NCBI RefSeq assembly: GCF_964222135.1
Contig: NZ_CAXQBR010000003.1
Coordinates: 62,001-126,000, forward strand
DNA length: 64,000 nt
Reading direction: 5' to 3'
DNA from: Euzebya sp.
GTDB lineage: Bacteria; Actinomycetota; Nitriliruptoria; Euzebyales; Euzebyaceae
Each line of letters starts with the position of its first letter. The first letter of the stretch is position 1. The notes below the pieces were generated by a model, which saw nothing but the letters and a program-made list of their open reading frames with translations, made no database searches and was not told where the DNA came from. Shown here in pieces: positions 4,437 to 33,138 of this stretch. The position numbers and the translations under genes are program-made.

Positions 4437-7239
4437 TCATGAGCGGCTGGTCCGCCCCGAGCCGGTCGCGTACTCGAGCAGCTCGGCGAACGTCGTCGAC
4501 GTCGCCTGCTCCCGCCCGCGGCGTCGGGTGTCCACGTCCAGCAGTCCCTCGAGCTGCGCGCGGTGCACAGGTCCGTGCACGGGATCCATCGCGACGGGGT
4601 CGAAGCCGAGCCGCGGTCCCCAGCGCTCAACCTCCGCCAGCAGCGTCGCGGCCCGGGTGCTCTGCCCCGCCATCGCCTCGGCCACGGCGAGGGTGTTGAT
4701 GGCGGCCAGGGGCCCGGTCCGCTCGCCGCTGCCGATCGCGGGCGGGAGCACCCCGCGCAGCTCGACGCCGGCCTCGGTCGGGCGGCCGAGGTCGATGAGG
4801 AGCTTGGCGGCGAACCAGGCGCTCGATCCCTCCGCCCACTGGTGGCCGGCGACCTCCGCGGTCGCGCGTGCTCGACGCAGCCCGTCGAGGGCCCCGGCCG
4901 GGTCACCGCGGACGGCGAGCAGCTGGGCGGCCACCATCTCGATCTCCGCGCGAGCCCAACCCGGGAGGGCGGCCACGTCGATCTCGCCGAGGACATCGGC
5001 CGCAGTGGTCACGTCCCCGGCCCCCGCTGCGACCAGCGCCCGCAAGCCGTGCGCGCGGGCCGCCACCACCGGGTCGTCCGCGCGCAGCGCGATCGCGAAC
5101 CCGGCGTGCTCGTGCACCTCGTCGACGCGTCCCCCGAGGTACTCGAGCAGCGCGAGGGCCAGGTGCGCCCTGGCCCGCAGGGGGTCAGGGGCCGAAGGCG
5201 CGGCGGCCAGTGCCAGGCCGAGCCAGCGGCGACCCTCAGCGACGTCCCCGAGGCGGTACCAGTACCAACCCATGTGACCGGCGACCGCGAGGGACACGGC
5301 GGGGTCCCCGCCGTCGAGTCCGTGGGACAGGGCGCGCCGGATGTTGGCCTGCTCGTCGGCGAGCCTCCGCCACCACCGGCCGCCCTCGGACGTCCGCAGG
5401 CCCGCGTCGGCGCGGGCCGTGAGGCGCGCGACCCAACGCGCGTGGGCGTCCTGGAGGTCGGCCAGCCGTCGTGCCGGCAGGCCGTCGATCGCATGGCGGC
5501 GGACGCTGTCGAGGAGCCGCAGCCTGCGCCCGGGACCGCCGCGTCCCGGCACGACCATGCCACGGAGCTCCAGCTCGCCGAGCCCGCGTCCCACGTCCTC
5601 CGGCGACGTGCCGACGTCTCCCAGCACGCCGACCAGCGCGGGTCGGACGAAGCCGCCGGTGAACACGGCCGCGGCCGCCAGGGCCGCTCGGGCCGCGTCA
5701 CCGAGCTGGTCGGTGCTCCACGCGATCGCCGCGTGCAGGGTGCGGTGGTGACGCCGCGTGGCGGGACCGCCGCCGAGCAGGCGCAGGCGGTCGTCCAGTG
5801 CAGCGGCGATCTGATCGGGCTCCAGCCGGTCGACCTGCCCGGCGGCCAGCTCGATCGCCAGCGGCATGCCGTCGAGCTCCCGACAGACGGTGCGGATGTG
5901 GGCCATCGCGCCCGGGCCGGGCCGGAAGCCGGGGACCGCGCGGCGTGCCGCGGCGATGAAGAGCCGGACGGCCTCGCCGTCCGGTGCGAGGTCGAGGGGG
6001 CCGAGCGTCAGCAGCCGCTCGCCATCCACGCCGAGCGGCGCGAGACCGGTCGCCACGATGCGCAGCTCGGAGCAGGCCGTCAGGGTCTCCACGAGGTCCG
6101 CCGCGCCGTCGGCGACCGCCTCGCAGCCGTCGAGCAGCAGGATCCCGCGCCGGTCGCCGATGGCGCCCACCAGAGCAGCCGACGTCACGTCACCGGTGGC
6201 CACCCCGACCGCGGCGGCGACCGCCTGGGGGACGTGACCGTCGTCGACCAGGGCGCCGAGCTCGGCATGCCACGGCCCCTCCGTCCCCTGCTGCGCGGCC
6301 ACGGCCGCGGCCGCGTGCTCGCGCACGAGCCGGGTCTGGCCCATCCCCGACACCCCCCCCACGGTGACGAGCCCCGGCCGGTTCGCCGCATCGGCCAGGG
6401 CCGCCAGCTCGGCGCGGCGGCCGACGAAGGCCGTCCGACGTCGCGGACGGCGCGGCCGTCGTCACCTCGCGACGCGCGGCGACGAGGGGCCCGCCCGTCG
6501 GGTCGAGGTCGCCGCGGAGCATCGCCTGCTGGAGGTCGCGGAGTCGGCGGCCGGGGTCGACGCCACGCTCCGCCCGGAGGTGGTGGTCCAGGGCGCGGAA
6601 CGCCTGCAACGCGTCGTCGCGTCGCCCGGCGGCGTACATCGCGCGCAGCCGGAGCTCCTGCACGCGCTCGTCGAGGGGGTGGGCACCGGCGAGGTCACGG
6701 AGGTCCTCCACCACCTCGCCGCCGCGACCGAGCCCCACGAGCACGTCGGCGCGGTCGGTGCGGATCGCGGTGCGCAGCGCCTCGAGCCGGACCCGGTGCG
6801 ACGGGACGACGGGGATGTCGTCGAGGCCGGCCAGCGGTTGACCGCGCCACTGCGCCAGGCACCCGTCGAGCAGCCGGAGCGCGGCCGTGGGATCGCGGTC
6901 GCGGACGGCTGCGGCCTCGCGGTGGTCGCGCGCCACCCGGTGCGCGTCGACGTGGGCGGGATCGATGTCGAGGACGTACCCGCCCGCGGTGTGGACCAGC
7001 GCGGTGCCGACCGCCCGGGACCGGAGCCGGGAGAGGTGCGCGGGCAGCGTCGTGCGGACCGACGGCGGCGCGGCGTCACCCCACAGGGCGGCCGCCAGGC
7101 GCGAGGCGGGGACCGGATCGCCGACGTGGAGCGCCAGGTGTGCCAGCGCGGCCGCCGCGAGCGCGCCACGGACCTCGATGCGCACACCGTCGATGCGGAC
7201 CTCGACGGGACCGAGGACACCCACCTCGAGCTGTGGCAC
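4437..7239 (-). pseudogene. SARP/AfsR-type regulator, split by a frameshift
   Basis: The start is GTG at 7239, with GGGAG seven bases upstream. The N-terminal ~240 residues are a winged-helix plus bacterial transcriptional activator (BTAD) domain of SARP type. At about 6435-6455 the frame must shift by one base to continue into the NB-ARC-like ATPase (FVGRRAEL...GGVSGMGQTRL) and a long TPR-like C-terminus ending at 4437. A single-base indel explains this. The Walker A lysine is Gln (GMGQTR, normally GVGKTR) and the Walker B region reads LLLDGCEAV, where related proteins have LLLDNCEH. Nucleotide binding may therefore be lost. It could be a true pseudogene, two separate proteins (BTAD activator and TPR protein), or a sequence error. 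An 11-bp-spaced direct repeat lies in its promoter. Confidence 0.75.
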
Positions 7240-7305
7240 GAACGGACTCCCATGCCGGGCCGACTCCACGCCGGCGACCGCACCTCGACGACTGCACCCC
7301 CGATC

Positions 7306-28254: not shown

Positions 28255-28614
28255 TCGCCCTCACCAGCGCATCACCAGCCGGGGCCACCGCAGCCTGGGC
28301 GACCGCAGTGGTGCGGCCGCGGAGCGCCGCGGGATCCTGACCGCCCGGCCAGTCCGTCCCCGGCCGGTCCGGGACGGTCCCGGGACCCCCGCAGCCGCAG
28401 GGAGGCGGGCCGCCGCACGTCGCGGCGAGCGGGACGGACCCGGAGACGAGGACCCGCGCCGACCGGGACCTTCGGCACCTCCGGAGGGCCACCGCGGGCA
28501 GCCATGCTGCGTCCATCGGGAGTCCGAACGGTCACCCCGAGCGACTCTCAGCCGACGTGACCCGTGGCCGGTGCGAGGCCGGCCCGCCGGGACCCTTTCG
28601 AGGAGGGGATCCCC
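28255..28614 (+). other. 360-bp gap and leader before lctP
   Basis: No gene is convincing in this stretch. It is very GC-rich and contains a near-palindromic run around 28365-28385 (GGTCCGGGAC / GTCCCGGGACC). A strong ribosome site AGGAGGGG (28601-28608) lies at the end. It probably carries the promoter of the lactate operon, but I cannot place a -35/-10 or a known LldR-type operator. Confidence 0.4.
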
Positions 28615-29877
28615 TTGGACAACCTTGCCGTTCTCAGCCTTCTGGCCTTCCTCCCGGTGCTGGTCATCGGCGTGCTGCTCGTCGGCCTCTCGGTGCAGAT
28701 CCTCTACATCGTGTTCGGGGCGCTGCTGCTGCTCGCGACGCTGACGGCATCGGGGGCCATGTCGAGCATCCGGGCGGCGTTCACCCGCATAGCCCGGACC
28801 CGCGGATCCAGGCCATCATCATCGCCTGGCTCTTCGGCTCCTTCATCGAGGGCGCATCGGGTTTCGGCACCCCCGCCGCGGTCGTCGCCCCGCTCCTGCT
28901 CGCCCTCGGGTTCCCGGCCATGGCCGCGGTCATGTGCGGCCTCATCATCCAGTCGACGCCCGTCACCTTCGGTGCGCTCGGCACCCCGCTCCTCATCGGC
29001 GTCAACGGCGGGCTGTCGAACACCGCGGCGCAGTCCAGCATCGAAGCCGCCGGCGGGACCCTCCCCGGCTACCTGGGCGACCTCGCCGTCGGCGCGGCGA
29101 CCGTCCACGGCATCGTCGGCACGCTCATCCCGCTGTTCATGGTGTGCCTGCTCGCCCGGTTCTTCGGGGAGCGGAAGCGGTTCAGCGAGGGCCTGGCGAT
29201 CTGGCGCTTCGCGATCTTCGCGGCGCTCGCCATGATCGTCCCGTACTGGACCACCGCCGCCCTGCTCGGACCGGAGTTCCCGTCGCTGTTCGGCGCCCTC
29301 ATCGGGCTGGCCGTCGTCATCACCGCCGCACGCCGAGGCATCCTCATGCCCCGCGAGCCGTGGACCTTCGCCCCCCGCGACAGCTGGCTCGACACCTGGA
29401 TGGGCGACCTGGAGCCCGACACCGCGGCCCCCCGCCAGGTCATCGGCACCACACGGGCGTGGGCGCCCTACGTCCTGCTGGCCAGCGTCCTGGTCATCAC
29501 CCGCATCCCCGAACCTGATGTTCGCCCAGTTCCAGTTCGCCACGGCCGAGGGCATCGGCGTCGCGACGATCCCGATCGTGGCCGCCCAGGCCGTCGGCGG
29601 CGCAGGCGGCAACATGATCGCCGTGCACAACGTCGTCGCGGCCGCCGCGACCGTGGGCCTGATCGGCCGGGAGGGCGACCTGATGCGCAAGGTCGCGATC
29701 CCGTTCCTCTACTACATCACCTTCGCGGGCACCCTCACGTACGTGATGGTGTGGGGCGTCGGGTTCAACCCCGGCACCATCGGCCTGGTCCTCCTCGCCG
29801 CCGCGGGCGCGTGGACCGTCGACCGGGCCCGCCGCGAGCGCTTCGGCATCGACGAGCGCGTCGAGGTGGCGGCGTGA
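28615..29877 (+). pseudogene. lctP: L-lactate permease, disrupted
   Basis: The start is TTG 28615, six bases after AGGAGGGG. LctP sequence is readable in three pieces. Piece one ends FTRI at about 28790, where one base is missing (CGCATAGC instead of CGCATCAGC). Piece two ([23 protein letters not shown] and on) runs to about 29510. Piece three starts at NLMFAQFQF and ends at 29877. About 130 residues are missing between pieces two and three, and about 50 near the N-terminus (VLLVGL joined to [10 protein letters not shown]). Intact relatives have about 540-560 residues. It cannot encode a working permease as read. glcD begins in its stop codon (GTGA). Confidence 0.85.
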
Positions 29878-31328
29878 GGCTGTCCCGGAGGGGTGGGGCG
29901 GGGCGGCGCCCGCCCGCCGTCCCGGCCTGGCACGACCCCTCCCGCCAGCTGACCGGTCGCGAGGACCGGCTGCTGGCCGACCTCCACGCCCTCCTCGGCG
30001 ACGACGGGCTCCGCGCGGGCCACCTGGGCCGCGCCACCTACCGGCGGGACGCGTCGTTCCTGAACGCCGACCCGCTGGCGGTCGCGCTGCCCCGCACCGT
30101 GGGGCAGACCGCAGCGGTGCTGCGGGCCTGCCGGGACTACGGGGTCCCCTTCACCCCCCGGGCGGCCGGCACCGGCCTGGCTGGGGTGCCACGCCGACGG
30201 GGGAGGGAGGGGTGCGGCCCCTCGTCGTCAGCGTCGCCCGGATGGACGCCCTGCGCGAGCTCGACGTGGCCAACCGTCGCGCCTGGGTCGAGCCGGGGCT
30301 CGTGAACGCCCGCCTCGGCCGCGCGGGGGCGGCGCACGGCCTGCGGTTCGCGCCCGACCCCGCCAGCCAGATCGCCGCGACCCTCGGCGGCAACGTCGCC
30401 ACCAACGCCGGCGGCATCCACGTCCTCACCTACGGCGTGATGAGCCAGCACGTGCTGGCCGTCGAGCTCACCGACGCCGACGGGGTCACCCACCTGCTGG
30501 ACGGCCGCGCCCCCGACCTGGCCGGCCTCGACGTCCGCGGGCTCTCCGTCGGCGGGGAGGGGACGCTCGGCATCGTCACCGGCGCCTGCCTGCGGCTGCT
30601 GCCGATCCCGCCGGCCGTCGGCACCGTGCTGGCCGGCTTCGGCTCGCTCCGGGAGGCCGCGGCGACCGTCGGCGACCTGGTGACCTCCGACCGGCTGCCC
30701 GACGCCGTCGAGCTGATGGACGCGCGAGCCGTCCAGCTGGTGGAGGGGTACGCGGGCGCCGGCTACCCCGTCGACGCCGCCGCGGTCCGGCTGGCCGAGC
30801 GCAACGGCGCCACCTCCACCACCCGCGGCGGACGAGGCGCAGCGCGCCCGCATCTGGAAGGGCCGCAAGGCGGTGGCGGGGGCCATCGCCAAGCACAGCC
30901 CCGACTACTTCCTCCAGGACGTCGTCGTCCCCCGCTCCCGGCTCGGGGAGATGCTCGACGAGGTCGTCGCCATCGGCGAGCGAGAGGACCTGGTGATCCT
31001 CAACGCCGTGCACGCCGGCGACGGGAACCTGCACCCCTTCGTCCTGTTCGACCGCCGCGAGGAGGGCGTGCTCGACCGCGTGTTCGCCGCCGGACGTGAC
31101 ATCGTGGCCACCGCCCTGCGCCTGGACGGCACCGTGACCGGCGAGCACGGCGTCGGCATCGAGAAGCGGGACTTCCTGTCCCACGTGTTCACCGCCGACG
31201 ACCTGGCCGTGCAGCGGCTGGTCCGCGACGCGGTCGAGCCGAGCGGCCTCGCGAACCCCGACAAGGTGCTCCCCAGCACCGTCGGCTGCCAGGAGGTCCG
31301 CATGGTCCCCGAGGGAGCATGGGTATGA
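29874..31328 (+). pseudogene. glcD: GlcD-like FAD-linked (lactate/glycolate) oxidase, disrupted
   Basis: The start GTG 29874 overlaps the lctP stop. The FAD-binding part reads well up to [12 protein letters not shown], then one G is missing in the G-run at 30183-30186. It resumes in the next frame ([16 protein letters not shown]) through GGNVATNAGGIH and LSVGGEGTLGIVTGA. At about 30783 a ~20-25-residue piece is absent. A second frame change at about 30826-30830 leads to ARIWKGRKAVAGAIAKHSPDYF and the normal C-terminus with AVHAGDGNLHP and GEHGVGIEK. Intact enzymes oxidise D-lactate or glycolate at the membrane. The stop overlaps the glcE ATG. Confidence 0.85.
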
Positions 31329-32347
31329 GCGCCGTCACCACGTCGATCACCACCGCCGAGGAGCTCCGGGACGTCATCGCCGACGCGCGCCACGCCGGCA
31401 CGCCCCTCGACGTTCGCGGCGGCGGATCGGTCCTCGACCGGCTCCCGACCGGCGGCGAGCAGGTCCTCTCCGTGGCCGGCATGACCGGCGTGGTCTCCCA
31501 CGCCGCGGACGACCTGACGATCACGGTCCGCGCCGGGACGCCCCTGGCCGAGCTCGCGGCCGTGCTGGCCGAGGTCGGCCAGGAGTGCCCGATCGAGCCC
31601 GCGGGCCCGGCGGGCGCCGCATCGGCCGGCACTGTCGGCGGCCGGATCGCCACCGGTCTGGCCGGTCCGCGCCAGCTCGGCGCCGGACGTGTCCGCGACT
31701 GGGTGCTCCGCGTCGCGTTCGTCACCGGGGCGGGCCACGTCGCGGCCGCCGGAGGGGTCACGGTCAAGGACGTCAGCGGCTACGACATCTGCCGGCTCCT
31801 GACCGGGTCGTGGGGCACGCTCGCCGTCATCACCGAGGTGACGCTGAAGGTCCGCCCCCTCGCACGCCACCGCGGCTGGTACGTCAGCGACGGACCCCGC
31901 CACGCCCTCGACCGGCACCTGTACCGGCCGTCCGCCTGCACCACCACCCCCACGCGCACGCACGTGCTGCTGGAGGGACACCCCGACGACGCCGCCGACC
32001 AGGCCGCCGCCGTCGGCCTCGAGGCGGGTGATCCCCCCGACCTGCCCGGCACAGCCCGCGCCGCCGTCGACCCGGCCGCGCTGCCGTCCCTCGCCGCGGA
32101 GCTCGGCGAGCTCGGCCTGCGCTGGGCCGCCCAGGACGGCGTCGGCGTGTGCCACCTCGACGGCGACGCGGAGCAGCTGGCCGCGGCCCGGGCGGCGGGC
32201 GAGCACCGCGGCGGCCGCCTGGTGGTCCTCGTCCCGTCCCTCGGCCTTCCCGCCTTCGGCGGCCCGCGCCGCAACGTGATCGCCGACCGCATCGGCGCCG
32301 CCCTGGACCCCGACGGCGTCCTGGCGCCCCACCGCTGGACCCGATGA
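31325..32347 (+). CDS. glcE: GlcE-like FAD-binding subunit
   Basis: 340 residues from ATG 31325 (ATGA overlap with glcD). The FAD-binding PCMH fold is visible: PLDVRGGGS, the conserved GRIATGLAGPRQLGAGRVRDWVLR and VTVKDVSGYDICRLLTGSWGTLAVITEV. It is somewhat shorter than usual GlcE, and the region after RPSACTTTPTRTHVLLEG looks compressed. Reading frame is intact. It would act with GlcD and GlcF, both of which are damaged here. Confidence 0.75.
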   Translation: MSAVTTSITTAEELRDVIADARHAGTPLDVRGGGSVLDRLPTGGEQVLSVAGMTGVVSHAADDLTITVRAGTPLAELAAVLAEVGQECPIEPAGPAGAASAGTVGGRIATGLAGPRQLGAGRVRDWVLRVAFVTGAGHVAAAGGVTVKDVSGYDICRLLTGSWGTLAVITEVTLKVRPLARHRGWYVSDGPRHALDRHLYRPSACTTTPTRTHVLLEGHPDDAADQAAAVGLEAGDPPDLPGTARAAVDPAALPSLAAELGELGLRWAAQDGVGVCHLDGDAEQLAAARAAGEHRGGRLVVLVPSLGLPAFGGPRRNVIADRIGAALDPDGVLAPHRWTR

Positions 32348-32361
32348 GAGGCTGACCGCCG

Positions 32362-33138
32362 ATGACCGCCATCGACCCGAGCGCCTGCGACCCCGCCGCC
32401 TCGATCTTCGACGCCGACCAGCTGGCCCAGTGCGTCCAGTGCGGGTTCTGCCTGTCGTCCTGTCCGACCTACGAGGAGACCCACCTCGAGGAGCACGGCC
32501 CGCGAGGCCGGATCCTGGCCATGCGGCTGGTGGCCGCCGGCGAGGTGGAGCTGACCGACCCGGCCGTCGCCGACTCGCTGCAGACCTGCATCCAGTGCCG
32601 GGCCTGCGAGGCGGTCTGCCCCTCCCTGGTCGAGTACGGGTCCCTCATCGAGACCGCCCGCACCGAGCTGACCCGCCGCGAGCCGCCGACCGGGCTGCGC
32701 GGGCTGGCCCACCGGGTCGGCTTCTGGGTGCTCGCCCGCCCGGCCTGGCTCCGCGCCGCGGTGACCGGCCTGTCGCTGGCCCAGCTGCTCCGCCTGGACC
32801 GGGTGCTCGGATCTCGGCTGCGCCCGGCCAGGCGCGTGACGCTCGCCAGCCTGTGGCAGCGGATCGCCGATCGGCCCCTCGCGCTGCTCCGGGCCATCCC
32901 CGAGCTCGAGCTGATCGAGCCGGACGACGAGCAGCGCTGCTGCGGATCCGGCGGCATCTACTCGATGGAGCAGCCGGAGTTCGGCGACGCGCTGCTGGCC
33001 GCGAAGGACGCCGCGATCGGGCGGGCCGGCGCGGACGGCGTCGTGTCCGGCAACGCCGGCTGTGCGATGCAGATCGCCCGGGCCGGCTGGGAGATCCACC
33101 ACCCGGCGGAGCTGCTCGCCCGCGCGCTGCGGGACTGA
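32362..33138 (+). pseudogene. glcF: GlcF-like iron-sulfur subunit with large in-frame deletion
   Basis: 258 residues, whereas GlcF proteins are about 400-450. Both [4Fe-4S] motifs are intact (CVQCGFCLSSCP and CIQCRACEAVCP). After LRPARRVTLASLWQ the sequence jumps directly to RIADRPLALLRAIPELELIEP and the last CCG motif RCCGSGGIYS. The first CCG domain and half of the second, about 150-180 residues, are missing without loss of frame. The product would lack the normal membrane/quinone-binding core. It ends the operon. Confidence 0.75.

Follow-up and report, generated by a model that had tools for sequence, protein, structure and literature searches.

LctP-family permeases transport lactate and glycolate. 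GlcDEF is the glycolate oxidase family, in which GlcF normally has two CCG domains. The closest intact operons to the one described here, those of genomes G037 and G012, run lctP-lutC-lutB-glcD-glcE(-glcF). Our locus keeps the order lctP, glcD, glcE, glcF with 67-87% protein identity to G037, but it differs from both operons in having no lutC and lutB between lctP and glcD and in having lost segments that both of them keep. The presence of lutC and lutB in the G037 and G012 operons points to lactate as the putative substrate. We do not claim the loss of lutC and lutB as an extra deletion, since lctP and glcD overlap tightly here behind a GAGGTGG sequence that resembles a ribosome site, and genomes G006 and G008 have glcDEF without adjacent lutCB.

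The other comparison that matters is with young pseudogenes. In Salmonella, 346 of 378 pseudogenes carry a single lesion, and among those 346 there are 141 short deletions and 131 genes with nonsense mutations (PMC2916853). Our locus resembles these recent pseudogenes in that short deletions are the commonest lesion, but the Salmonella genes mostly have one lesion, many of them nonsense, whereas here there are seven lesions in three of the four genes (three in lctP, three in glcD and one in glcF) and all are deletions. This benchmark shows that pseudogenes with several lesions, every one a deletion, are unusual.

The genes lie at 28615-33138 on the plus strand of the window, by which we mean the whole stretch of 64,000 nucleotides that was analyzed. 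It belongs to contig C3 (246,686 bp). The draft genome consists of 111 contigs totalling 5.06 Mb, with an estimated completeness of 97.1%. The initial annotation described four coupled genes with GTGA and ATGA overlaps and a strong ribosome site before lctP, and direct reading confirms all of this. A AGGAGGGG-like ribosome-binding site (28601-28610, plus) stands 5' of the TTG start of lctP, the GTGA overlap of lctP and glcD is at 29874-29877 and the ATGA overlap of glcD and glcE at 31325-31328. Between glcE and glcF there is a 14-nt gap and no overlap.

Lesion sizes were measured against intact orthologues in G037, G012, G049, G055 and G062 and are consistent among them. The lactate/glycolate permease gene lctP (28615-29877, plus), recognized by Pfam Lactate_perm and by alignment with the lctP of G037 and G012, is a pseudogene in three pieces (28615-28788, 28791-29513 and 29518-29877). 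Its first deletion takes 120 nt (40 aa) in frame relative to both orthologues, with the junction at 28686-28699. The second removes 1 nt at ~28789 (28788-28791, plus) and changes the frame according to both homology and the frame scan. The third, placed by orthologue alignment at ~29512 (29508-29518, plus), removes ~407 nt (~135 aa; 404 nt against G012) and changes the frame again. Positions 96-299 and 446-521 of the Lactate_perm profile (family PF02652, TIGR00795) match over the cut-off in different frames and the rest is missing.

The gene for the FAD-linked 2-hydroxyacid oxidase subunit, glcD (29874-31328, plus), is also a pseudogene in three frame pieces. It was found by tblastn with G037 GlcD and by the Pfam domains FAD_binding_4 and FAD-oxidase_C, both of which are split across frames. 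It has lost 1 nt at ~30180 (30176-30190, plus; a net shift of 1 against G049, G037, G055 and G062, and a call of the frame scan), 60 nt in frame (20 aa) at ~30780 (30770-30790, plus; 60 nt against four relatives) and 2 nt at ~30824 (30820-30830, plus; 62 nt lost in total with the preceding deletion, and again a call of the frame scan). The first and last of these change the frame, which makes two frame changes each in lctP and glcD. The Pfam splits of both genes fall at the same places as the frameshifts defined by homology. The iron-sulphur subunit gene glcF (32362-33138, plus) is cut in frame to 258 aa by a deletion with its junction at ~32850 (32838-32857), which takes 447 nt relative to G049 and G055 and 450 relative to G062 (149-150 aa). 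Fer4 and CCG domains remain at its ends, leaving the 4Fe-4S part and one CCG domain by Pfam, and its middle is absent by comparison with a dozen full-length orthologues.

These measurements agree with most of what the initial annotation had estimated. It put frameshifts near 28790, 29510, 30185 and 30828, and the codon-usage scan and homology each find them independently. Its losses of ~20-25 residues in glcD and ~150-180 in frame in glcF hold up, as does one of ~130 in lctP, but the other lctP loss, given as ~50 residues, was too large. Its suggestion that glcE might be compressed must be rejected: the gene (31319-32347, plus) is intact, and its 342 aa align over their full length with the G037 and G012 orthologues of 336 and 351 aa. 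The reading frames of lctP and glcD are destroyed relative to intact orthologues. None of the fragments contains an internal stop codon. One could argue that the shortened genes still encode a working, reduced system, because glcE is undamaged, three of the losses, including that in glcF, are in frame and the operon spacing is kept. We find this hardly credible, since lctP and glcD each shift frame twice and the orthologues we examined retain what is missing here.

The damage is local. Frameshifts were sought with a homology-free codon-usage Viterbi scan at a strict setting over ~18% of the genome, and in-frame losses were assessed where orthologues were at hand. The scan gave 17 candidates in 0.93 Mb, 4 of them within the operon. 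The 13 in the other 0.92 Mb give an expectation of 0.03 per 2 kb and a probability of ~3e-8 for four or more, so the clustering of frameshifts in the operon is far beyond chance. Both neighbours of the operon are intact, and the adjacent GH32, DUF454 and YbaL-like genes appear so. Elsewhere in the window, a gene region at 4461-7242 (minus) changes frame between a part resembling an N-terminal transcriptional activator and an AAA ATPase part; either a SARP-type regulator gene with a frameshift or a pair of adjacent genes could account for this.

The earlier statement that neighbouring operons show nothing like this is correct within the window, but contig C107 carries another gene with several lesions close together, for an EncM-like FAD oxidase. 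This gene (L112:2893-3859, G000:C107 ~22.9-23.9 kb, minus) lacks ~29 residues in frame at one place and a longer segment at another, and its frame changes twice. Two VVT-like stretches flank the first of these gaps, which suggests a short direct repeat there; against the PDB set, the middle piece of the gene matched nothing informative. Of the lesion clusters seen, that of the lactate operon is the largest but not the only one.

Genes with a single lesion occur elsewhere in the genome at ~1.4 per 100 kb and are of both signs, since extra as well as missing bases can be read from the junctions of other frameshifted genes. Examples with one frameshift are L079:15013-16060, L092:18386-19049, L097:5868-6602, L084:12748-13466 and L079:2091-3287, and the products involved are a galactokinase, a WS/DGAT acyltransferase, an ABC ATPase (with an extra base), an ABC-2 permease and a histidine kinase. 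Another histidine kinase gene, L054:6626-7950, changes frame at an apparent short tandem duplication near its HAMP region. Aligning 142 kb of the genome's own genes with same-genus orthologues revealed just two defects, a gap of 18 aa and a split of 1 nt. Nearly all of the 34 AMP-binding and 21 aldehyde dehydrogenase matches in the genome are full length in a single open frame. Of the partial matches, one is at a contig end and several are paralleled by similarly partial ones in relatives. The four other PF02913 genes of the genome are full length as well. With so little damage in core genes and in these two large enzyme families, we reject decay or error across the whole assembly.

A local error of assembly or consensus is a different matter. 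The organism's operon would then be intact, and a poorly covered stretch would have been misjoined several times with only deletions left. We think this is the less probable explanation, but it deserves to be taken seriously. Every lesion is a deletion, the fragments show little or no relaxed selection, and the density of frameshifts (13 in 0.92 Mb) is above that in same-genus relatives (1 in 0.4 Mb, p ~0.045). The draft also contains a demonstrable failure: the ends of contigs C76 (end of L049) and C89 (start of L050), both lie within another lctP and share an unmerged overlap of 290 bp with 91% identity. T>G or A>C accounts for 15 of the 25 mismatches in this overlap, and they probably reflect error-laden reads in GC-rich DNA. 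GC is 81-85% at that failure but 62-70% at the three lctP lesion sites (2nd-20th percentile locally, in 60- and 100-base windows), which is below average and poses little difficulty for sequencing. At the glcD sites GC is high (85th-96th percentile). No long direct repeats occur at the junctions; the inferred microhomology reaches at most ~6-8 nt at one of the two lctP junctions and ~3 nt at the second. The missing lctP and glcF segments are found nowhere else in the assembly, all contigs considered, and there is no orphan contig that holds them. Genes interrupted by assembly or sequencing error do resemble this locus in having frame changes with no clear loss of selection in a draft genome. 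They differ in that here there are large deletions at moderate GC against a clean background of core genes. The initial annotation offered either decay or an artefact of GC-rich repeats. The first fits all the measurements and is the one we slightly favour; collapse of GC-rich repeats we reject, given the lack of junction repeats and the moderate GC of the lctP sites.

Selection on the fragments was gauged from amino-acid changes on each branch. For lctP plus glcD there are 44 on the window branch and 50 on the G037 branch (excess -6 +/- 10), and for glcD plus glcF 28 versus 20 on the G049 branch (excess +8 +/- 7, non-significant). The intact glcE serves as a control, with 29 versus 30 (-1, G037) and 19 versus 8 (+11, G049). 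Substitution thus does not appear to be clearly raised in the fragments, but very recent decay would show no speed-up either. That seven tightly clustered deletions are matched by neither substitutions nor nonsense codons could also mean that a single mutational burst, such as the repair of several breaks, made all of them in one lineage in place of slow neutral decay. We regard this as improbable, because nothing directly indicates a shared event, the junctions have no repeat and the distant EncM-like gene has the same pattern. A broader version is that a single event, or strong deletion pressure, produced several short deletions in the operon without substitutions and that the same process struck other dispensable genes, the EncM-like oxidase on C107 among them; this too is unlikely, if a little less so.

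The operon is missing from the three same-genus genomes and has a patchy distribution in the class. GlcE orthologues are present in 15 of the 66 genomes of the class, this genome included, and in 0 of the 3 same-genus genomes, and the nearest ones (70% and 67% identity) belong to another family. This patchiness suggests that the operon is accessory, and it has probably spread horizontally within the class. A search of plasmid records gave just a 36-base match. The genome has other lactate genes, two with LUD domains on C22 and a full-length lctP on C78, so the function of the operon may be redundant.

We believe, with some reservation, that this is recent and genuine decay of a dispensable operon, probably spread horizontally, in a genome with further lactate genes. 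The damage is local, the missing segments are absent elsewhere, the lctP breakpoints are below average in GC and have no repeats, and the operon is accessory and possibly redundant; the other single-lesion genes of both signs and the one other gene with clustered lesions point the same way. The reservation comes from seven deletions out of seven, the lack of any nonsense codon, amino-acid change that is not clearly raised and a draft with unmerged C76 and C89 ends. An operon for uptake of lactate or glycolate by LctP and oxidation by the FAD and iron-sulphur proteins GlcDEF would have been acquired, probably by transfer within the class. It would have become dispensable because the LUD lactate-oxidation genes and another full-length LctP gene remain, and several deletions would then have inactivated it with glcE still untouched. 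The deletions would exist in the living genome and the products would presumably no longer work.

The observation is real in the assembly, and in kind it would be ordinary gene decay. If the lesions are an artefact, automated annotation would be misled by this draft into denying the organism a lactate/glycolate pathway. If they are genuine, the locus captures an accessory catabolic operon of a GC-rich bacterium at an early stage of being lost through deletions, and it could serve to measure how deletion compares with substitution in young pseudogenes.
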